Assembly (NCBI RefSeq): GCF_020360975.1
Contig: NW_025408685.1
Span: 186,001 to 250,000, forward strand
Origin: Hirsutella rhossiliensis
Taxonomy: Eukaryota > Ascomycota > Sordariomycetes > Hypocreales > Ophiocordycipitaceae
Direction: 5' to 3'
Length of the DNA stretch: 64,000 nt
How positions within the stretch are numbered: position 1 is the first letter of the stretch; the number at the start of each line of letters is the position of its first letter. Under the pieces are notes generated by a model. It had not been told where the DNA came from. It was given only the letters and a program-made list of their open reading frames with translations, and ran no database searches. The position numbers and the translations under genes were made by a program. This document shows positions 1,340-46,920 of this stretch, piece by piece.

Positions 1340-1414
1340 CCTCCCCGACGGTCCTCTCACTGAGCCTCTCTAGCCGTGCCTGCGCCGCCGTCATCTCCTC
1401 GGGCACCCTGTTCC

Positions 1415-2314
1415 CTACCAGGTCCCTCTCCGCACCTCCGACACGAGCATGATGCCGTCGAGCGTCGGGCACCGCGATAGCTGCACGTATAGGCTATACG
1501 GGTCGCACGGCGACGGTACCGCGCGCCCGTCGACGGTCGTCGTCCTCGCCCCCCGGAGCTCCAGCGCCACGCGCTCCAGCGTCCCGCCCTGCACCTTGTA
1601 GTCGGTGCAGGCGAAGGCCGCGGCGCACGGCAGGCCCCTCCGGCTAACGTCGTTCCGCTGCCACGGCCGCTTCCGCTGGGCCTGGATCTTGACGCTGATG
1701 GGCGTCAGCAGGATCGTCCCGGACGGCATCCCCACGAAGTGGAAATCCTTGGTCGTCTCCGAGGCCAGCACCATGCCGACCGGCGGCCCGAAGTGCATTG
1801 TCAGCTCCGCCGAGACCCGGTGGCCGGGGAAGGCCCGGTCGGGTATGACGTCGACCGCCGTGTACCCGGCCCCGTTCACTAGCTTCAGCCCCTGGTGCGT
1901 GTTCTGGTTCACGACGACCGGCATGCCGGGCACGAAGAGGAAGACGGCCGGCACCGGAGTCGCGCTGTCGTCGCCCTGGCCTAGCATCAGCACCGCCTCC
2001 TCCTCCGTCGGCGTGCCGTCCCTCCACTTATGCTCGGAGACGAAGATGCGCGCCGCCGTCCGTTGCCGGGCCCGGAACGCGAGGGCCGCCTCTAGGTTGA
2101 GGTTCCAGCGATTCCTGTTAAGCGGCGTCACCACCGTCACCCCAGTCTCCCACGGTATCCGCCTGCCCGCCCGGTAGCACCTCGAGTTGAGGAGGTCTAG
2201 GTCCGACCGGTCCTGCTCCCCCCGCCGGATCCGCCCGAGCAGCCGCCGTAGCTCCGGTCGCCGGCGGCGCGCATCTGCTCGTCGAGCATGACGACCGTCG
2301 TAAACTTCCTCCAT
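1415..2314 (-). pseudogene. Helitron 1 helicase, C-terminal half
   Basis: An open frame of about 299 codons encodes the second RecA-like half of a PIF1-type 5'-3' DNA helicase, the motor that unwinds the strand during Helitron rolling-circle transposition. Visible landmarks are TVVTPLNRNRWNLNL, the VPGMPVVVNQNTHQGLKLVN segment, the motif V region YKVQGGTLERVALELRG and the terminal motif VI segment LYVQLSRCPTLDGIMLVSEV. It is nearly identical in order and content to the copy at 9,790-11,574. The first half of the helicase lies in other frames at 2,197-3,016, so this is one piece of a broken gene. Confidence 0.85.
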
Positions 2315-3016
2315 AGCGCGTGCGCCTTATCGTGCTGCCGCCGCCGCTCGGCCGCGAACGCGCCGTCCGCGTCCCACGGCACCGCCGCGCTCGGCAGCAG
2401 GATCGACCGCTCCTGCACCGGCCGGAACTGATGGAAGTCGCCGCAGAGGATCACTACCGGGATGCCGCCGAAGTCCCGCGGCGAGCCCCGCAGCCGGCAG
2501 AGCTGCTCGTTCGCCGCGTGCAGCGTGCGCGCCCGAGCATGCTGACCTCGTCGATCACCAGCACCTCCTTCTCCTGCCAGTCCATCCGCGACCGGCCGTC
2601 GACGAAGCGTTCGCCCTGTCCCGGCAGCCGCACCCCGTCTACCTCCCTCGCCGACCCCCCCGCCTGGCCGCCCTGGCCGACCAAGAGGCCGCAGGCCGAG
2701 TGCAGGGTGATGCCGTTGATCCGCGCCGCCGCCGTCCCCGATGTCGCCGTGATTAGTAGCTGGCTCGATAGGTCCTCTGGGCGAACAGCTCGACGAGCGC
2801 CTCAATGACGCGCGACTTGCCGGTACCGCCCTCGCCGCCGACGAATAGACAGAGCTGGCCGGCGTCGCCGCTGTCGCCGGCGTCGCCGCCCTGCCGGGCC
2901 TGATCGAGCTGGCGGCATATGATGAGGAGGGCGATCGACTGCTTCTCGTTAAGCGTTAGCCGGCCCGCTAGCTCCGCCGGCGGCGACAAACGAGCTCGAC
3001 GGGCCGAGCCGCACAC
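2197..3016 (-). pseudogene. Helitron 1 helicase, N-terminal half
   Basis: Two overlapping frames carry the ATP-binding core. Walker A is seen in CLFVGGEGGTGKS (frame 3,016-2,753), followed in the other frame by Walker B in EVLVIDEVSMLG and motif III in VVILCGDFHQFRPVQERS, then the DEQMRAAGD segment that leads into the C-terminal half. At least two single-base frameshifts separate these blocks. Known for the family: this domain hydrolyses ATP to unwind DNA. As written here the helicase cannot be translated as a single chain. Confidence 0.82.
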
Positions 3017-3809
3017 GCATCCCCGCGTCGGCGTCCGCTGCCGTCACCTCGACGTCGTCCTCGCCGAAGCCGCCCATCACCCCGCGTAGCGCCGCACTCG
3101 GTCGGCCCCGGGCGCCGACGCCGCCGCGCCGCCCTGGATTCCTTGGATCGCCCGCTCCGCTCCGCGCGGCGCTCCTCTGCTGCGACTTGATGGCTCTTAC
3201 CTGCTCTTGCCGCGGCAGCGCCGCCCCGGAGAGGGTCGACCCCGCGAGGATTACCCGCCTCGGCCCCGCCTCGCCCGCCACCACCGTCGCATCGAGCTCG
3301 GCCGCCGACGAGAGCGCCGACTGCTGAAACCGGCAGAGCTGCTGCGTCATCGCCAGCAGCTCCGCCGACCGCGCCGTTACCTGGCCCGCGCCGGCGGCGT
3401 TCCGGAAAACGTCGATGAGCCGCGCCGCGTCGCCTGCGCCGCCGGCGCGGTACACCTGCCCGCCCCCCTCGGCCGCCTCCTCCGCGCCCTCGTTGGCGCG
3501 TGCCGCCGCCGCCGGCTCGCCCTCCTCGGTCGTAGCGGCCCATTGCCTGGCGTCGCGCTTGGCGTCCTCCGCCGACCGCCGGAGCAGCTGTACGTTGTCC
3601 GCGAGCCGCGCGATCCTCGGCGCCAGCGCCGCCCGCTCCCGCGCCCAGATATCGTTGATGTCGCCCGTCTCCTCGCAGACGAATGCCTCCCACGGCACGA
3701 ACAGCGCTAGATGCTGCACCGCCGCCCTTTGCACCGTTAGCCGGGCCACGGGCCGCGTCGCCGTCCGACGGTACGCCCTCGGCTTTGCTATACGTACCTC
3801 CGATGACAT
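2949..3809 (-). pseudogene. Helitron 1 inter-domain linker
   Basis: An open frame of about 286 codons, rich in Ala, Arg and Glu, leads into the helicase through the segment ASGPANA. It includes a conserved-looking stretch LALFVPWEAFVCEETGDIND and a predicted helical AARIARLADNVQLLRRSAEDAKRD region. In Helitron proteins such a linker joins Rep to helicase. The copy at 9,790-11,574 retains only the last part (GFGEDDMDVTAAD), matching GFGEDDVEVTAAD here. I assign no separate function. Confidence 0.6.
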
Positions 3810-9340: not shown

Positions 9341-9789
9341 CCGTGTCTTCGTTCCTCAAGGCTTTTGTGCGCAACCCAGGGGGTTGCCTTACCTCGTTGA
9401 TTCGTCGGTTGTTCTTTTCTCGCTTTTCATTCGTCGATGTTCTCGCTTTTCATTCGTTAATAAATAAAAATAAATAATGCCCTGCCCCCTTGCTGCCCCT
9501 TTTAGTTCCAGCTGCGCAGTTCGCTTCCAACGCCTCCGTAGACCATACGCCGCCGCAGACCACATAGAGGAAGGTGCCCAAGCCGGCCCGGCTTCTAACT
9601 CCGCCATAGACCACACGCCTCCACAGACCACCCCCTTCGCCCGTCCTCCTGGCCCTTAACCTACACTCCTTTTACGTCAGAAGTGTGGAAAATGCAGGGC
9701 GCCTGCGTTACCTGCGGAGCCAGTCGGCCGCCTCCTGTGTTGTCTGCCTGCTAAGCTCCTCTAGCCGGGCCTGCGCTGCCGTCATCTCC
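9341..9789. other. repeat copy and 3' side of Helitron 2
   Basis: A copy of the GTTCCTCAAGGC unit followed by TTTTGTGCGCAACCC and GGGGTTGCCTTACC lies at about 9,350-9,392; the same compound sequence is present at about 13,089-13,142. From about 9,750 rightward the sequence matches the 3' coding end of Helitron 1 (about 1,365 on), so the 3' end of Helitron 2 should lie in this interval. The terminus itself was not identified. Confidence 0.5.
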
Positions 9790-11574
9790 TCAGGCACCCG
9801 GTTCCCCACTAGGTCCCGCTCCGCACCTCTGATACGAGCATGATGCCGTCGAGCGTCGGGCACCGCGACAGCTGCACGTATAGGCTATACGGGTCGCACG
9901 ACGACGGCACCGCCCTCCCTCGACCGTCGTCATCCTCGCCCCCCGCAGCTCCAGCGCCACGCGCTCTAGCGTCCCGCCCTGCACCTTATAGTCGGTGCAG
10001 GCGAAGGCCGCGGCGCACGGCAGGCCCCTCCGGCTGACGTCGTTGCGCTGCCATGGCCGCTTCCGCTGCGCTGTGATCTTGACGCTGATGGGCGTTAGCA
10101 GGATCGTCCCGGCAGGCATCCCGACGAAGTGGAAGTCCTTGGTCGTCTCCGAGGCCAGCACGATGCCCGCCGGCGGCCCGAAGTGCATGATGAGCTCCGC
10201 CGAGACGCGGTGGCCGGGGAAGGCGCGGTCGGGGATGACGTCCACCGCCGTGTACCCGGCCCCGTTCACAAGCTTTAGCCCCTGGTGCGTGTTCTGGTTC
10301 ACGACGACCGGCATGCCTGGCACGAAGAGGAAGACGGCCGGCACCGGCGTCGCGCTGTCGTCGCCCTGGCCTAGCATTAGCACCGCCTCCTCTTCCGTCG
10401 GCACGCCGTCCCTCCACTTATGCTCGGAGAGGAAGACGCGCGCCGCCGTCCGCCGCCTCTCCCGGAACGCGAGCGCCGCCTCTAGGTTGAGGTTCCAGCG
10501 GTTCCGGTTGAGCGGCGTCACCACCGTCAGGCCCGTCTCCCACGGGATCCGCCTGCCCGGCCGGTAGCATCTCGAGTTGAGCAGCTCTAGGTCCGACCGG
10601 TCCTGCTCGCCCCGGCGGATCCGCCCGAGCAGCCGCCGCAGCTCCGGGTCGCCGGCGGCCCGCATCTGCTCGTCAGCATGACGACCGTCGTGAAGCGCCG
10701 CCACAGCGCGTGCGCCTTGTCGTGCTGCCGCCGCTGCTCGGCCGCGAACGCCCCGTCCTCGTCCCACGCCACCGCCGCGCTCGGCAGCAGGATCGACCGT
10801 TCCTGCACCGGCCGGAACTGGTGGAAGTCGCCGCAGAGGATCACTACCGGGATGCCGCCGAAGTCCCGCGCCGACCCCCCGCAGCCGGCAGAGCTGCTCG
10901 TTGGCGGCGTGCAGCGTCCGCGCCCCGAGCATGCTGACCTCGTCGATCACCAGCACCTCCTTCTCCTGCCAGTCCATCCGCGACCGGCCGTCGACGAAGC
11001 GCTCGCCCTGGCCCGGCAGCCGTACGCCGTCAATGTCCCTCGTCGCCCCTCCCGCCCGGCCGCCCTGGCCGACCGTAAGGCCGCAGGCCGAGTGCAGCGT
11101 GATGCCGTTGATCCGCGCTGCCGCCGTCCCCGACGTCGCCGTAACCAGTACCCGGCTCGATAGGTCCCTCCGGGCGAGCAGCTCCGCGAGCGCCTCGATG
11201 ATGCGCGACTTGCCGGCACCGCCCTCGCCGCCGATGAACAGGCAGAGTTGGCCGCCGCCATCGCCGCCTGTGTCATCGCCACGCCGGATTCGGTCGAGCT
11301 GCCGGCACACGATTAGGAGGGCGATGGCCTGCTTCTCGTTGAGCGTTAGCTGCCCCGCCAGCTCCCCGGCGGCGCCAACGAACGAGCTCGACGGGCCGAG
11401 CCGCACGAGCATCCCCGCCGCCGTGCCTGTGTCTGCGTCGCCGTCGGCCGCCGTTACGTCCATGTCGTCCTCGCCGAAGCCGACGGCCAGCCCGGCTTCC
11501 CCTCTCGACTCTATCGTCGCGAGCAACCTCCGACCTTCCTCCCCTCCTCTCTCTTTGCCGGCTTGCCGCCGCAC
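9790..11574 (-). pseudogene. Helitron 2 PIF1-like helicase, near-complete but frame-scrambled
   Basis: An open frame of about 594 codons with no stop encodes a PIF1-type helicase: Walker A in CLFIGGEGGAGKS, motif Ia in VLVTATSGTAAARING, Walker B in EVLVIDEVSMLG, and the YKVQGGTLERVALELRG motif. The frame is misleading in two places. Between about 10,885 and 10,680 it reads out of frame (VGAGLRRHPG to VAALHDGRHA), and the true motif III segment VMILCGDFHQFRPVQERS lies in a second frame at 10,844-10,587; the frame is then restored. Near the C terminus it shifts again, losing the LYVQLSRCPTLDG segment seen in Helitron 1. No Rep domain precedes it, so this copy is 5'-truncated. Confidence 0.85.
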
Positions 11575-39543: not shown

Positions 39544-40669
39544 GCATTCCTGTCGATGGCATCACCTGGGTTTATGTCACTTACTGCGGGGGCCGACATT
39601 TAGCTTGCAGGCTCGTCTAAAGACTGTTTTTGGCTAGTGAAGGAGGAAAGTAAAATAAAAATAAAAACCAGGTGAATAGTCCCGTAAGTAGAGTATCGGC
39701 CCAATGCTGGGTGTCGGGAAAGAATGGGGGTTGGCAAAAGGAAGAAAAAACGAGGAAATGGACAAAACTTGTTAGATCTCTGGCAAGGGAAGTATTTGGG
39801 GAAAGAACGAGTAAGATAGCTACAGCAGCTTCACGCCTTCTTTGCCTGGCTGCGTGCTGGTCATGGCGTAGCCGTTGCAGTCTTCCCAGGGGCTTGGACA
39901 AAGGACAGTCGGATTTGCATTTTACGGGTCACATTTGCCCCGTGTTGGTGGGAAATAGAACACTCGCCCCTGAGTAAACGTGATGAGTCGGTTGGTTAGC
40001 CGGACCGAGTCTTGGGAGCCGCTCGCTTTAGAGCCCTGCCTGTTTGCCAATATTTCATAACTGTCATATCCAACCAGTATTGCAGAACATCAGTACCTCG
40101 GCAGCCGCGGACGCAGGTCTCACAGAGGCTACCTTCTTCTTCCGAGGTGGATGCCGACGTGGGCAGCCCTTCCCTTGTCACGAGGCTTCCTTCCTGCGAG
40201 CTTCGCCACCCCAGCACTTCCCATGCCAGGACGAGGGAAGAGAAATCAACAGGCAGAATCCTGCGTCACGCTCACCCCTGACCCCACTGCAGGGGAGCTA
40301 AGGGCCAGTCTGCATGCATGGTTCGGAAGAGGCGGTCCGCCCAGTCACCCTAGACTCTAGAGATTCGTCCCGGTGCCTATTTGGAAGTTGGCTGCTGGTG
40401 GATTTGGGATGTGATCGACGCGTAGATGCAGAAGCTGGAGGTGTCCTGGTCAGGGATACACGGACTATTTGATGCAAGGGATGGTTGAAGACTTAGGCTG
40501 ACTGGTAGACGTCCCCCCTAAAGGGTGGCTCACAGGCATCAGCCAAGCAACAGCGGACCACAACCCCGAAACAAGAGGAAGGTGCATGAGCCAACCCGGC
40601 TGAAAGCTGGCACGAAGTGGCCAAGGTCACATTGCGGAGGACTGGCGGGATAATTTGCTGGAGCTTGCA
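39544..40669. other. no gene recognised
   Basis: Short frames only. Base composition and codon pattern differ clearly from the viral segment that follows. No repeat shared with the right flank of the viral segment was found by eye. Confidence 0.5.
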
Positions 40670-41998
40670 TCAGGGGTTACAGACAAGCTCGACCCGGGAA
40701 GCCCATTCGCCCTGGGTGGAGAAGATGTTGTTCATCCCGCCGCCCGCCGACACCGTCCCCCTCTTGGCCATCGCCTGGGCCTTCTGGGCTATCCTGGCCG
40801 GGATCATCATGCCGGTCGCGCCCTGCTGCGGCGGGCCGTGGTAGTCCACGACGGCGACGCTGAAGGCGTTGTGGATCTTGATGCTGAGGCCGTACGACGA
40901 CTTGTCCGGGGTCGGCTTCCCGTCGATCATCTTGGCGTTGCAGGTGACCGAGACCGCGATGGTCCCCAGGCACATGGCCGACTTGCCGTTCAACATCATC
41001 ATGACGTCGTTCAGGGCGTTGGTGCTCTGGATGCGCCCGTCGTCGTTCATGTAGGAGAAGGTGGCGCTGAACGACGAGACGCCCCAGGAGGCGTTCATCC
41101 AGTAGTACCCGGTCGTGGCCGTGACCTGGGACAGGCACCCGTCGAACTTCTTCCCCAGGGTGTTGAACAGAGGCCCGAAGGCGTAGGCGGGCAAGCCGAT
41201 CCTGGCGAAGTGGAACCCAATCCTCCTGCCGCTGGTGTTGCCGACCCTGCTCTTCTGCATCATCACGTTCTGGGCCACCCCCTCGACGATGATCCCCTCC
41301 GAGGTCCACTGGTTGACCAACCACTCGCCGCTCATGTCGGCCACGACCACGTCCGCGTAGTAGCGCGGGGAGCCGGTGGTGTCGTACTTCTCCGGTCCGA
41401 TGCCGATGCAGTACCTGGTCGGGTCCAGGCTCGAGAGGTAGGCGTTCTCGGTGGGGACGATGGTCCCGCTCTCGTCGCGCCCGACGAACTTCATGTCCGG
41501 GTCCATGACGCTGCGTCTGGTGTTGTTCACCGGCTGCACCGGGAGGATCACCATCTTCGCGCTGGCGATGGCGTCCAGCTGCTCCCTGGTCCAGTCGGGC
41601 TCCCTCTGCTCCGCGCCGATGTTCCTCCCGGTGATCATCAGCGAGTTGGTCTCGGTCTTCATGGCCCCGAGCGTGTGCGTGCCCGTGGTCTTCCACTCGG
41701 ACGCCTTGGTGGAGTCGAACAGCTCCACCTTGTTCATCGCCTCCGTGAGCGCCTTCTCCCTCGAGGCCTCGGCCCTCTTTCTCATGGCCTCCCTCCTGGC
41801 CTTCTTGCCCGTCTCCTCGCCGGTGGTCTGGTCCCCGCCGATGGTCGGCTGGCCGGTGGTGGTCTCGCCCTTGTCCTCGGTCTCCTCCGGGGTGGCGCTG
41901 ATCTCCTTGTTGACGGTGGTGTCCACGGGCTGGTCCTGGACCTCGCTCGTGGTGCTGGTCTTCCCCTTGGTGGAGGTCTTCTTGTCGCTGCTGGCCAT
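40670..41998 (-). CDS. viral protein of unknown function, candidate structural protein
   Basis: The frame starts at ATG 41,998 and runs 442 codons to a TGA at 40,672-40,670. The last dozen or so residues may come from flanking DNA, since viral codon usage seems to end near 40,700. The N-terminal 60 residues are Lys/Thr/Ser/Glu-rich low complexity, followed by a basic helical stretch (ARREAMRKRAEASREKALTE). The rest has a varied, beta-rich look, with many Gly, Thr, Asn and aromatic residues (TTGYYWMNASWGVSSFSATF) and no enzymatic motif. Capsid candidacy is inferred from context: it is the only other large gene beside two replication genes and has the size of many capsid proteins. I found no diagnostic capsid motif. 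It could be another virion or DNA-binding protein. Confidence 0.5.
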   Translation of the reverse strand: MASSDKKTSTKGKTSTTSEVQDQPVDTTVNKEISATPEETEDKGETTTGQPTIGGDQTTGEETGKKARREAMRKRAEASREKALTEAMNKVELFDSTKASEWKTTGTHTLGAMKTETNSLMITGRNIGAEQREPDWTREQLDAIASAKMVILPVQPVNNTRRSVMDPDMKFVGRDESGTIVPTENAYLSSLDPTRYCIGIGPEKYDTTGSPRYYADVVVADMSGEWLVNQWTSEGIIVEGVAQNVMMQKSRVGNTSGRRIGFHFARIGLPAYAFGPLFNTLGKKFDGCLSQVTATTGYYWMNASWGVSSFSATFSYMNDDGRIQSTNALNDVMMMLNGKSAMCLGTIAVSVTCNAKMIDGKPTPDKSSYGLSIKIHNAFSVAVVDYHGPPQQGATGMMIPARIAQKAQAMAKRGTVSAGGGMNNIFSTQGEWASRVELVCNP

Positions 41999-42147
41999 GG
42001 TGATGGTGGTGACGATGGTCTTGTTGATGATCCTGATCCTCTGTCGAGTGCGTCCTCCACATCGTAGCAGCCACTCCTGAACCTGATCACCCCGGTGAGC
42101 ACGAGCATCACCAGCAGCCCGCGGATGGTCTTGTGCCTGGTTTTGGT
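41999..42147 (-). other. short spacer between viral helicase and structural candidate
   Basis: After the helicase TAG stop the same frame stays open and encodes a hydrophobic stretch (GLLVMLVLTGVIRF). An ATG at 42,108 could start a small protein overlapping the downstream gene. It may be a small membrane protein, a readthrough extension or chance; nothing decides between them. Confidence 0.3.
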
Positions 42148-43722
42148 CTAGATGATCCTCACCACCGCCTTGAGGCTCTCCAAGTCGACAATCTCCTTGC
42201 CCCAGTTCCTGGCCACGTAGTCGCGCCCGGCGTGGCTCAGCTCGAACTTGATGACCCTGATCCCCACTATGAACCCCATCCCGTGCTCCGGCTCGCACAC
42301 CAACCTGGACGACCTCGCGGCGAAGGCCCCGACCAGCCTCTCCATCGACACCCCGGCCCTGGTCGCCATCAGGGCCGTTGCTGACCTGCACTCTGATGGT
42401 GAAGATGATGGATCGATGATCATCCCCGCCGTGATGTGGTTGACGCTCTTCTTGAACTCCGTCTCCAGGGCGATCTCGAGCGAGACCGGGGGCCTCTCGT
42501 AGCAGTTGGACACCGACAAGGCCAAGCCGATGAACTGCAGCCTGATTCTGTTGGTGATGGCCTCCTTGGGGAACGGCTTGAGCTTCCCCAGCCTCTTGTC
42601 CATCCGGTAGATGATGACCCTCCTCCCGATGCTGTTGTTGATCGACCCCAGCTTGGAGAACCCCAGCTTGTTGCTGATGCCGATGATGGTCTGGGAGAGG
42701 TAGGCGGAGACCCCCTTGGACTGGACCGGGGCGTTGGACGTCCACCTCTTGATGTTGTTGTGGTTCATGTCCTCCTCGATGTCGCACTCGTCGCAGATGA
42801 TGAGCCTCTTCTCGGCCAACTCCATCACCGTCTCCGCGTCGGGCCACCTGGACCCCTTGCCGATCAGGTCCGTGACCGTCCATTTGGCGCCGGTGCCGAA
42901 GATCCTGCTGACGTTCATCGCCAAGACGCTCTTGCCCTCCTCGCCAGTGGGCCCCCAGAAGATGATGACCGAGGGGCTCTCGACCGGGTCCGTCAGGGCC
43001 TTCCCCATCCTCCACAGGAAGTCGAGCTTCTGGTCGTCTCTGAGCGGGAGTAGGATGGCGTTGAGCATCTCGCTCTCGAGGTCGGGCACCTCCCTGGCCG
43101 GGCACTCGAACGGGAACGCCATGATGATGGGCGCGGTCACGAACATGTACATCCTCCTGTGCTCGGGCCCCCTCTCGTTCTCGATCACCGTCTCGTGGGG
43201 CTCGTACTTCACTATCGGGCCGTCGTCCGTGTAGTCGATGTCGAACTTCAGCCTGTACGTGCCTATGCACACACTCTTCTTGATGGGGGCGATTGGGAAG
43301 GCCACTCTGGTCAGCAGCGGGTAGAACCTCTTGAGCGCCGTCACGTAGTTCACCGGGGCGTTGATGCCGACGACGTCCGACAACTCCTGCGCGGCCGTGG
43401 GCGACTCCATCTGCCACCACGAGGCCATGTTCCTGCAGTAGATGTAGTAGGTGATGTCCCGCACGACCACGGACCTGCGCTCGACCGCCCACATGACCAT
43501 GGACTTGTCCTGCTCCGACAGCTCGTTGTAGGCCGGGCCCGAGCAGGGGAAGTCGTCGAAGAACCACATGTTGCCCCCGTGGCTGTGCATCACCAGGCCG
43601 CCGTTCTCCGACCTGGTCTCGGCCTCCTCCTCGGCCCTCGCTATGGTGGTGGTCATCTCCGTCTCCACCGCTGTCCTGGTGCTGGTCGACCCCGACATGC
43701 CTGAGCTGCTGTCGCCGGTCAT
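42148..43722 (-). CDS. viral superfamily 3 (D5-like) helicase
   Basis: The first ATG is at 43,722, giving 524 residues; the frame is open a further 14 codons upstream to a GTG. SF3 helicases are ATP-driven 3'-5' replicative helicases of DNA viruses. Walker A is FWGPTGEEGKS (about residues 257-265 for the G to S core), Walker B is RLIICDECD (Asp-Glu about 311-312), motif C is QTIIGISNKLG (Asn about 351) and the arginine finger is in SIGRRVIIYRM (about 367). The preceding LDFLWRMGKALTDP block and the NNIKRWTSNAP segment fit the poxvirus D5/phage P4 branch. No primase active site is visible in the N-terminal 230 residues, so this looks like a helicase without a fused primase. Confidence 0.88.
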   Translation of the reverse strand: MTGDSSSGMSGSTSTRTAVETEMTTTIARAEEEAETRSENGGLVMHSHGGNMWFFDDFPCSGPAYNELSEQDKSMVMWAVERRSVVVRDITYYIYCRNMASWWQMESPTAAQELSDVVGINAPVNYVTALKRFYPLLTRVAFPIAPIKKSVCIGTYRLKFDIDYTDDGPIVKYEPHETVIENERGPEHRRMYMFVTAPIIMAFPFECPAREVPDLESEMLNAILLPLRDDQKLDFLWRMGKALTDPVESPSVIIFWGPTGEEGKSVLAMNVSRIFGTGAKWTVTDLIGKGSRWPDAETVMELAEKRLIICDECDIEEDMNHNNIKRWTSNAPVQSKGVSAYLSQTIIGISNKLGFSKLGSINNSIGRRVIIYRMDKRLGKLKPFPKEAITNRIRLQFIGLALSVSNCYERPPVSLEIALETEFKKSVNHITAGMIIDPSSSPSECRSATALMATRAGVSMERLVGAFAARSSRLVCEPEHGMGFIVGIRVIKFELSHAGRDYVARNWGKEIVDLESLKAVVRII

Positions 43723-43841
43723 GGTGATGTTCGTGCTCGTGTGATGGTGGAACCGGTTCCCCACCTACTCAGGCTGATCTAGCCGTCGATGTACTCGATC
43801 ATCAACCCGACCACGATCAGGGTCGCCAGCGGACTGAGCCG
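43723..43841. promoter_or_regulatory. divergent intergenic region between viral helicase and polymerase
   Basis: Only 119 bases separate the helicase ATG (minus) from the polymerase ATG (plus), so both promoters, if used, must share this space. It contains TGATCTAGCCGTCGATGTAC and CTCGATCATCAACCCGACCA, with GATC occurring several times. No clear TATA box is present. Regulatory function is inferred from position alone. Confidence 0.4.
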
Positions 43842-46067
43842 ATGGACCTGGACCAGTTGGCGAGGGTGTTCGGCACCCCCTTCGTGTCGACGGGCGACTA
43901 CCCGCTCAGCGACCTGGACATCTACCTGGTCAGGACTAAGACCACCATCACCAACCTGGACGAGCTCATGGACCTGGGGTGGGTCATCATCTCGAGCTGG
44001 ATCGAGGACGAGAGCATCAGCAAGTCGTGGGACAACATCATCACCGACGTGTCGTTCAGGTTGGCGAAGGGCAACTCGAGGGTGATCTTGGTCACAGATG
44101 TACCGATGGCCTTGGGCAGGGAGGTGGTGGTCAACCTGGACGCGGACGACCCCGGGGCCTCGCCGGAGATCATCACCAACATGAGGCAGTCGATCCAGAA
44201 GCTGAGGGCGGTCTCCATCTCGGGCTACAGCCCCCTCGCGCCCAGGGGGTTGGGGATGACCACCGTCAAGGAGGTGCCCAAGCTGTCGATCATGGGCCTG
44301 GACATAGAGGTGAGCACCCACAAGCGCAGGGGTGGGATGCCGCTCCCCCACGATCCCATCATCAGCATCGTCGTCTCGAACGGGGGCTGGTACGACAAGG
44401 AGTTCAAGGACAAGTGCTACTGCCTGTACGCCTTCGGGGTCTGCAGGGAGATCAAGTGGCCGGACGGGCGCAACGCCTGGGTCGCCAAGGTGTCCGGGAA
44501 CGAGGAGGCCGTGAGGGAGACGTACAAGATCATCAACATGCTCTGCCCCGACTTCGTCAACGTCCACAACGGGTTCAACTTCGACTTGAGGTGCTTGGCG
44601 GCGTCGAGTGCCCTGGACCCCATGATCGGCCCGACCTTCTCCGAGAGGCGGTTGGGCAACGTCGGCCTCGGCATCTTCTGGAGGTTGGACAACGGCACCA
44701 TGATCGTGGACTCGATGTACACCGCGGGCACCGAGCCGACCAGCAACTGGCCCTCGCTCTCCCTGGCGAAGATGTCGGAGAGGTTCGACCTGCCCCCGAA
44801 GATGGACAGCGGCACCATGTCGATCAAGGTGTCGGACACCGTCGACGTGACGGACATCGTCGAGTACAACGCCAGGGACGCGGACCTGCACGTGTGGTTG
44901 CCCAAGAACATGCTGATGTGCGAGAGGCTGTGCACCCTCGCCGGCGTGGCCAGGAGCACGATGTGGGACGCGATCGCCAACAACACCGCGGTGATGATGT
45001 TCTGCCTCCAGCAGTCCGAGGCCCTGAAGAGGGGGATGATCCTCGACTTGGGCAGGAACACCTCCGTGACCGACGACGCGAAGTACGAGGGCGGCTTCGT
45101 CGTGACCCCGGCCCCGGGCTGCTACGAGGGGGTGGCCATGTTGGACGGCAACTCCCTGTACGGGTCGGTGATGAAGCACTTGCAGATCTACGTCGACAGG
45201 TGCGTGTCGGCGCCCACCATCGAGGCCCTCCGCAAGAAGACGGCGGTCCACCTGCCTGAGAATGTGGATGAGGTTGAGACCGAGAAGGTGGTGTGGAACA
45301 AGGAGGTGATAGTCATGAGGACCAAGCGCACCTACATCTCGGTCTTGCAGGGCGAGGAGACCCTCCTGGGCGAGATGATCGGCATGCTCATCCAGATGAG
45401 GACCAGCGCGAAGAAGGAGGCGTCGAGGTACCCGACCGACACCATCGAGTGGCGCAGGTGGACGGTCCTGGGCCAGTGCTACAAGCTGTTGTTGGTCAGC
45501 GTCTACGGGGCGACCGGGGGCAAGCACAGCATCCTGTCGTCGAGGGTGTGCGCGGAGGCCATCACCTGCGCGGCCAGGTACTACGTCAAGAACATGATCT
45601 CGGTCTCGGAGAGCAGCGGCTGCACCGTCGTGTACGGGGACACCGACTCCATCTTCCCCTGGGTCGGGGGCAAGACCAGGGACGAGTGCGACGTCGCCGG
45701 CATGAGGCTGAAGGAGTTGGTCGACAAGAGCCTCATCGGGACGCCGTTCGAGAACGTGAAGGCCGACATGAAGGGCAACTACAAGCACATGCTGATCACC
45801 ACCAGGAAGAAGTACTCGACCGTGGACTGGGACGGCCTGGTGGAGACCAAGGGCATGACCCCCGTGAAGAGGGACACCCTCCCGATCGCCAAGTACGTCA
45901 CCAAGAACGTGCTGGCCATGATCAACAACACCAACCCATTCGAGACCAAGAAGAGGAATGTGACCGAGTTCCTCGGCAAGGTGATGACCACCATCAACAG
46001 CGACAAGTTGCCGGCCAACCTCCAGATGCTCGAGACCAAGATCAACTGCCAGCCCCACTACAAGTAC
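43842..46067 (+). CDS. viral family-B DNA polymerase, C-terminally truncated
   Basis: ATG 43,842. The replicative polymerase with proofreading exonuclease: Exo I GLDIEV (Asp154, Glu156), Exo II VHNGFNFD (Asp248), Exo III EYNARD (Tyr342, Asp346), Pol A MLDGNSLYGS (Asp435), Pol B KLLLVSVYG (Lys548, Tyr555), Pol C VVYGDTDS (598-603) and the KKY motif RKKYST (656-658), followed by ETKGMTPVKRDTLPIAK. The last block and the absence of an obvious terminal-protein insertion between Pol A and Pol B suggest an RNA-primed, delta/NCLDV-like type rather than the protein-primed polymerase of adenovirus or Polinton. Pol A has Gly where Pro is usual (SLYGS), and Pol B has Val-Ser for Asn-Ser. Viral sequence ends at about residue 742; the frame continues into unrelated DNA to 46,244, so the thumb is incomplete. 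Confidence 0.9.
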
Positions 46068-46920
46068 CTAATAGCAGCAGGAACAGCACTAATAGCAGCA
46101 GGAACGGCACTAGCTGTGGCCGAACGAATGTTAGCGGAAGGTTGGGAGGTAGCTGCGTCGGCTGCGGTAGGCGAGAAATCAGCGTATTGGGGTTCTCGAG
46201 GAAGGGTGAATGGCTGCGCGTTATCTTCAAAGAGAAGATGGTGAATCGAAAAGTCCGTATGAGATCGAAGCTCTTTTATCCATTGATCCCAATCTTGGGG
46301 CTCCGAAAGAATTGTTCGTCGTGATGCTAGGTTCTTCGACATCTTCGCTGACTGTACCGGTATAATTTGAGAAGCAACAAAGATGAAGAAAGGCTGGTTG
46401 CAATCTGCACACCGGAAGTTACAGAAACTCTGTTTCTCCCGGGCTCATAACTCTCACGAAGAGAGGATGCAAGTGGGCATTGATTGTGTAACAATGGGTA
46501 TGATTTGTTGTATTCCGTTGTGTCTGTCCCTCTTGCAATGCCCTCTTCTAGGCTCCCTATTTATATCCCTTGGTTCCCTATTGATATCCCCTTTTCAGTT
46601 GTATAGGTACAATATCTAGGAGGCTGGGCTCCTTTCCCCAGCCCCCCCCTTTGCATACTGACTTTCCCTAGTCGCCGAGGGCTCTTTCAGCTTCCCCCGT
46701 ATATGCAGTCTCTCTACAGGCTGTGTGGCTGCCTAATGCGGTCTCCTAATAGTCTTCTGCAGCCTCAGAACTCTCTGCAGGCTGCCTTTCTGTCTAGCCC
46801 GTCGGGGCCCTTAGCTGTATACCCCTTATGGTCACCCCGAGCTCAAGATCTCAGACGTGCTTCGCGACATTATTACCCATCGCTTTATCTAATATAAATA
46901 CTATACTCCCATGAAATACT
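46066..46920 (-). pseudogene. truncated LTR retrotransposon: leader and gag start
   Basis: The minus strand from about 46,342 encodes SKNLASRRTILSEPQDWDQW, IKELRSHTDFSIHHLLFED and PREPQYADFSPTAADAAT, resembling the N terminus of a fungal Copia gag. It breaks off at the polymerase junction (46,067) after two copies of a 21-base unit (AATAGCAGCAGGAACAGCAC, about 46,069 and 46,090; SAVPAAI repeated in gag). Upstream on the minus strand is a TATA-like GGATATAAATAGGG (about 46,555-46,570) and probable LTR sequence; exact LTR limits are not resolved. The rest of this retrotransposon is absent. Confidence 0.65.

Follow-up and report, generated by a model that had tools for sequence, protein, structure and literature searches.

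How a block of genes with the look of a DNA virus came to lie between the repeats of a fungal chromosome, and from what kind of element it was derived, is the question raised by the locus described here. It lies in a stretch of 64,000 nucleotides, referred to below as the window (C19:186001-250000), of the 81.8-Mb, 40-contig assembly of Hirsutella rhossiliensis, a nematode-killing ascomycete. An earlier note, made from the letters of the window, described an endogenous virus segment carrying a superfamily 3 (SF3) helicase, a family-B DNA polymerase (PolB) and a candidate structural gene. The analysis points, with good probability, to part of the replication cassette of an undescribed double-stranded DNA (dsDNA) virus-like replicon lineage of about 24-34 kb in filamentous Ascomycota. 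Such a cassette would consist of a single-stranded DNA (ssDNA)-binding protein (SSB), a D5-type SF3 helicase and a nucleic-acid-primed PolB.

The three long frames stand where the note had placed them (Table 1) and in the divergent layout that it gave, with PolB running opposite to the helicase and the third gene co-directional with the helicase. They contain no internal stop, the helicase's own end aside; composition-shuffled frames hold a mean of 49.6 stops and a minimum of 29 (200 shuffles). The foreign codon usage that had been proposed is also borne out in comparison with three host PolB-like frames, which make up the whole comparison set. The GC content of third codon positions is 0.98, 0.95 and 0.99 in the segment genes versus 0.74-0.82 in the host frames, and AGG accounts for 75 of 94 arginine codons in the segment versus 27 of 154.

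The PolB retains intact all the exonuclease and polymerase motifs ascribed to it: ExoI DIE, ExoII NGFNFD and ExoIII YNARD, then A DGNSLY, B KLLLVSVYG and C YGDTDS, together with KKY. Scored on the two end residues of every motif, these are identical in all 37 rows of the family alignment, gaps at motif B aside. PF00136 is matched by 37/37 rows (best E-value 1.5e-38), whereas PF03175, the organellar and viral type, is weakly matched by four of the 37 (best 1.2e-5), the window row not among them; the solved structures scoring best by profile (best 60 of 109) are archaeal-type, alpha and delta polymerases. Judged by its sequence, the window PolB is read as the nucleic-acid-primed type. The protein-primed type is not supported by these two profiles, in agreement with the note, which had set the polymerase apart from that kind, and the profiles likewise separate it from Polintons, adintoviruses and bidnaviruses. 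An H. rhossiliensis record is already annotated as a DNA polymerase family B protein. A NADAR domain (PF08719) is present on three of the 37 PolB records (P0004, P0005 and P0009) and absent from the window copy.

The full set of SF3 motifs reported for the helicase is likewise present: Walker A GPTGEEGKS, Walker B RLIICDE, the motif C sensor QTIIGISNK and the arginine finger SIGRR. Residues G257, K264, D311, N351, R367 and R368 are invariant across 39 rows, and the fold matches of the helicase half are D5-type. No primase domain is among the six Pfam families found in the 39 members, the N-terminal part not having been folded alone. Compared with the P4-type and SaPI5 primase-helicases, the window helicase is without a recognised primase half.

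The third gene is the point at which the earlier description has to be changed. Its protein, 100% identical to HRG_11162 of H. rhossiliensis, had been presented as a 442-residue candidate structural protein; the long frame is present, but it measures 441 aa, of which 430 lie within the insert. The comparison of its predicted structure with capsid and other folds, which the note had proposed, brought up SSB-type folds, with a moderate match. Nine of the first 11 PDB rows are ssDNA-binding proteins, including CP312R of African swine fever virus (ASFV), described as such in a passage of PMC9963768, and the other two are phage-related proteins, one of them named DUF2815. The BFVD matches are uncharacterised proteins of giant viruses (the best) and phage ssDNA-binding proteins. 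As modelled, the third gene probably encodes an SSB of OB-type fold. From the T7 gp2.5, Enc34 and DUF2815 SSBs it is set apart by a long N-terminal extension and by the lack of a sequence-profile match in the libraries searched. A capsid or other structural protein is very unlikely: the long, disordered, charged N-terminus, which is also a feature of some capsid proteins, one UniRef record among the relatives named 'Capsid protein' and the moderate fold match would fit it, but the ssDNA-binding proteins returned from both structure collections, the neighbouring helicase and polymerase, and the C-terminus of the family argue against it. The relatives carry a C-terminal tail that is missing here, and among the 28 hits, which count the own record, 18 have [YF]M or [YF]MK as their last residues, which we take to recall the aromatic tips of SSBs.

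Fold and motifs suggest how the intact replicon would be copied. A ring of helicase would open the duplex and the SSB would cover the single strand thus exposed, for PolB to copy with proofreading, the primer maker lying outside this piece. In its predicted action the cassette resembles the replication core of giant viruses, but none of the features compared (polymerase clade, primase fusion, capsid, ATPase and size) decides for or against membership in Nucleocytoviricota.

Table 1. Positions of the segment, its genes and its flanks in the window, and of related stretches on contigs C1 and C5
Feature	Position	Strand	Remarks
Endogenous segment of DNA virus-like replicon	40709..46067		5,359 bp, both ends truncated
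Family-B DNA polymerase, 3'-5' exonuclease motifs, 742 aa	43842..46067	+	PF00136 E 4.2e-36
D5-type SF3 helicase, 524 aa	42148..43722	-	SF3 motifs, D5-type fold matches
Probable single-stranded DNA-binding protein, OB-type fold	40709..41998	-	fold matches; 430 residues inside insert, C-terminal tail lost
Left flank, host repeat	40000..40708		junction from comparison with L210 and L211
Right flank, different host repeat	46068..46800		junction from comparison with L212 and L213
AT-rich island of about 30 kb (L196, L174, L172, L173, L195)	C1 10918300-10948800		intact PolB, D5-type helicase, RNase H, Pif1, Rpb1-like, Rpb2-like and TFIIS-ribbon frames
Piece of about 3 kb, GC about 41% (L197)	C5:4699518-4702440		Rpb1-like and TFIIS-ribbon proteins

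The C-terminus of PolB and the tail of the third gene are cut off, which marks the segment as a fragment broken from a larger whole. PolB ends 61-78 residues short of an end that is present in 35 of 36 aligned relatives, and both flanking repeats, as well as both end genes, are broken off mid-sequence. The fungal repeat setting had been recognised correctly, with a different host repeat on each flank: at least 41 matched places, its own included, are found for the left one (query 40000-40690) and at least 42, again with its own, for the right one, three of which span nearly the whole query. Other copies of the left repeat (L210, L211) match up to 40708 and diverge beyond, and those of the right repeat (L212, L213) match from 46068 onward, which places the junctions at 40708/40709 and 46067/46068; the span proposed earlier, 40700..46067, keeps its right end and is refined to 40709 at its left. 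Set against two further copies of each flanking repeat, the junctions show no target duplication, and no integrase frame is present within the segment, a piece truncated at both ends. Since the end genes and the repeats are cut mid-sequence and no target duplication is seen, the DNA fragment would have been joined illegitimately into the chromosome, where it separates two truncated repeats of unrelated kinds, without an integrase of its own. A transposon with its own ends was considered and rejected: the inverted repeats are imperfect and lie away from the junctions (25 longest of 86), and the flanks are two different repeats. The search for more copies, suggested in the note, found the segment to be single in its own genome except for a 43-bp match of 91%. 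This short match sits near a frame judged by eye to be transposase-like.

The exactness of these borders also bears on the suspicion that the segment is an assembly artefact or a contaminant joined to a fungal contig. A sharp composition change at the segment and the fact that its records come from one and the same H. rhossiliensis assembly would agree with such an origin, but both junctions are exact breaks in repeats present at dozens of other places in the genome, and members of the family are also found in other ascomycetes on long contigs (101, 326, 420 and 948 kb), so that this is the least probable of the readings weighed here.

Relatives were sought among 5.8 billion proteins, which yielded at least 44 PolB (own record included), 28 SSB and at least 52 helicase hits; only the candidates with most words in common were scored for PolB and helicase, so that their counts are lower bounds. 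The alignments took in 36 of the 44 PolB, 22 of the 28 SSB and 38 of the 52 helicase hits. Seventeen named organisms, 16 of them other than the present one, are represented: Hirsutella, Fusarium albosuccineum, Conoideocrella, Circinaria, Saxophila, three Xylaria, Monosporascus, Macrophomina, Friedmanniomyces, two Oleoguttula, Cryomyces, Hortaea, Pseudogymnoascus and Cytospora, all of which we take to be filamentous or black ascomycetes. The relatives of PolB, helicase and SSB recur together. Longest-contig sizes are shared by PolB and helicase in 19 cases, and by PolB and SSB, as well as by helicase and SSB, in seven (own contig included); in Oleoguttula, Saxophila and Circinaria the locus tags are neighbours or differ by two; and the helicase runs on into the SSB, by eye, in gene models of Cytospora and Cryomyces. 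The 95 distinct longest-contig sizes comprise 57 below 24 kb, 29 at 24-34 kb and nine above. Because 86 of the 95 do not exceed 34 kb, the step at about 34 kb is read, from sizes alone, as the size of the replicon. These sizes and the truncation of both terminal genes support the earlier suggestion of a fragment of a larger viral genome.

A distant cousin is located in the same genome. In an own-genome search, the window PolB matches contig C1 at about 10927.9-10929.5k above the host polymerases, and the reverse search agrees. The surrounding island has a GC content of 31-40% per kilobase versus 48-62% outside and holds 28 frames of at least 130 aa, one of them antisense and one across the left edge. 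Its PolB can be aligned to the family profile across 643 columns, the thumb end among them (E 9.9e-39), and its helicase across 215 columns that take in the part ahead of the SF3 core (E 1.8e-13). The order and orientation are those of the window, helicase (-) then PolB (+), but about 6 kb of other frames lie between. Further Pfam matches are RNase H (7e-29), PIF1 (2e-41), Rpb1_2 (6e-8), Rpb2_6 (1e-16), TFIIS ribbon (7e-5) and APH, with DUF7730/2EXR below the cut-off. The C1 island may be an almost complete, if distant, relative of the window element. Because genes resembling Rpb1 and Rpb2 and a TFIIS-like ribbon are present in it, its lineage may transcribe its own genes and is perhaps cytoplasmic, a suggestion that comes from the genes of C1 and not from those of the window subfamily; the segment itself contains no gene of this sort. 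The piece on C5 is a third endogenous fragment in this genome, with an Rpb1-like protein 36% identical to that of C1.

Several other C1 proteins were considered. A 256-aa protein was a candidate SSB by position only, and its profile comparison with the window SSB is not significant. A 715-aa protein (L195:258-2405) shows an N-terminal TFIIS ribbon followed, by eye, by KPDG and a methyltransferase-like stretch; its possible reading as a capping enzyme, likewise by eye, finds no support in Pfam or PDB. Two similar proteins (L172:3318-4418 and L173:5905-7248) look F-box-like without a Pfam match, and several small Cys-rich proteins are present; both groups are perhaps host-derived.

The PolB tree that had been proposed places the window family and C1 in one clade of their own, with few viral reference rows for comparison. 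The support is 100 in IQ-TREE (Shimodaira-Hasegawa-like approximate likelihood ratio test, SH-aLRT; quick mode, with 12 family rows, C1, 14 IMG/VR, eight archaeal and three host rows) and 1.0 in FastTree (35 of 37 family rows, 31 of 77 IMG/VR frames from 80 loci, 20 of 80 archaeal loci and three host frames). The C1 PolB has a long branch, an odd make-up and its highest identity to an archaeal row. A domesticated host polymerase is rejected, as the three host PolB-like frames lie opposite the family and C1 across a branch with SH-aLRT 100. The giant-virus-type comparison is limited to two delta-type viral rows from IMG/VR, and the clade stands apart from both. Giant-virus reference polymerases were not obtained with host polymerase delta as bait. 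The region that the note called like that of delta polymerases and nucleocytoplasmic large DNA viruses does contain KKY, but the likeness is only loose, since the deep clade is apart from host delta and from the two delta-type rows. In IMG/VR the PolB has no close relative, only distant matches that do not exceed 34% identity within a short stretch, and none was found for the SSB, helicase or Rpb1; this absence is weak evidence, as eukaryotic DNA viruses seem to be thinly represented there (delta-type polymerase motif in only two stretches). One locus from the Rpb1 search there, L198, resembles a large phage contig by eye. Among prokaryote genomes, the best 80 PolB matches listed are archaeal-type PolBs of at most 29% identity. 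Library matches of the segment proteins are only generic, to PolB and SF3/P4-type primase-helicases, and nesting in a known family of fungal plasmids or transposons was not seen in what was tested. The inference of the note is supported to the extent of a fragment of an unclassified DNA replicon in a fungus.

Nucleocytoviricota, with vaccinia D5, the ASFV primase-helicase C962R, the ASFV SSB CP312R and the giant-virus PolB, are among the closest known systems. Were the segment derived from a true giant virus, large and capsid-bearing, as integrated in Rhizophagus, this would account for the D5-type helicase, the PolB and the CP312R-like SSB with its best BFVD matches in giant viruses, as well as for the RNA polymerase-like subunits and TFIIS ribbon of the C1 relative. 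A 1.5-Mb giant-virus region in another fungus is described in a passage of PMC10640383, and giant-virus genomes whose presumed hosts are fungi have been recovered from crustal fluids (PMC9894930). Such an origin is unlikely, however, given that only nine of the 95 contigs of relatives exceed 34 kb, the replicon being apparently of about 24-34 kb versus 70 kb or more (passage of PMC10640383), that no primase domain is recognised on the helicase, and that the PolB falls outside the delta-type rows at hand, in its own clade. The A32-type packaging ATPase (PF04665) has no match in the H. rhossiliensis genome, a weak test with its control positive in two of 14 genomes; at Pfam sensitivity it bears on the C1 island only, the window piece being too short for that gene. 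No match was found in this genome to the double jelly-roll capsid (PF04451), but its control was silent (0/14 genomes).

The pGKL-type yeast cytoplasmic linear plasmids have a protein-primed PolB. The window element resembles them in its ascomycete host and small DNA replicon, and C1 adds RNA polymerase-like genes, the capping enzyme being an unsupported by-eye reading. It differs by its nucleic-acid-primed type of PolB, its SF3 helicase and its SSB. Because the type of PolB differs, the window element is, by its predicted proteins, distinct from a yeast-type cytoplasmic plasmid. Part of PMC10328495 treats the yeast virus-like elements alongside protein-primed polymerase trees and gives the yeast cytoplasmic elements as known only from Saccharomycetales, so that another lineage would be needed. 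The remnant of a capsid-less cytoplasmic plasmid, independent in descent and following the yeast-killer-element life style, is a sub-case of the replicon lineage preferred here and is possible, though rather doubtful. It is favoured by RNA polymerase-like genes within the roughly 30 kb of C1 and by the lack of a capsid family match among 18 of its 27 sense frames of at least 130 aa (17 by Pfam, one by PHROGs), which is weak evidence. Terminal inverted repeats, by contrast, were not found at C1: there is no terminal pair, only one stray inverted 12-mer shared between the end regions.

A wider proposal is tentative, if not far short of an even chance: that filamentous Ascomycota carry a deep, unnamed lineage of cytoplasmic replicons of about 25-33 kb with a full replication set (PolB, D5-type helicase and SSB), a two-subunit RNA polymerase of their own at least in the C1 branch and no capsid of known type. 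If true, this lineage would add a third solution to those of the giant viruses and the killer plasmids of yeasts. According to passages of PMC10962738, the mriyaviruses are giant-virus relatives of 35-45 kb, many with SF3 helicases and lacking DNA polymerase and RNA polymerase, and the gamadviruses have a T7-type OB-fold SSB. The element preferred here is like mriyaviruses in its similar genome size, its SF3 helicase and, as in gamadviruses, its probable OB-fold SSB, and unlike them in having PolB.

No description of the family was found in searches of open-licence PMC literature, some of which were directed at neighbouring questions. The main text of a 2020 PolB survey (PMC7544198) holds no word beginning with 'fung', and the abstract of a 2023 paper (PMC10640383) states that no dsDNA virus infecting fungi was known to date, while also citing giant-virus genomes thought to come from fungi. 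The segment, its relatives in the 16 other named organisms and the C1 island provide a concrete handle on a dsDNA element of fungi, from which dsDNA viruses are scarcely known: they supply genes for which isolates can be screened, an indication of genome size and a set of host groups. Giant-virus-like replication parts in a plasmid-sized genome bear on the links among giant viruses, their small relatives and cytoplasmic plasmids.

Elsewhere in the window, a 1.66-kb direct duplication, 90% identical, is present at 1368-3026 and 9759-11418, in a GC-rich part.

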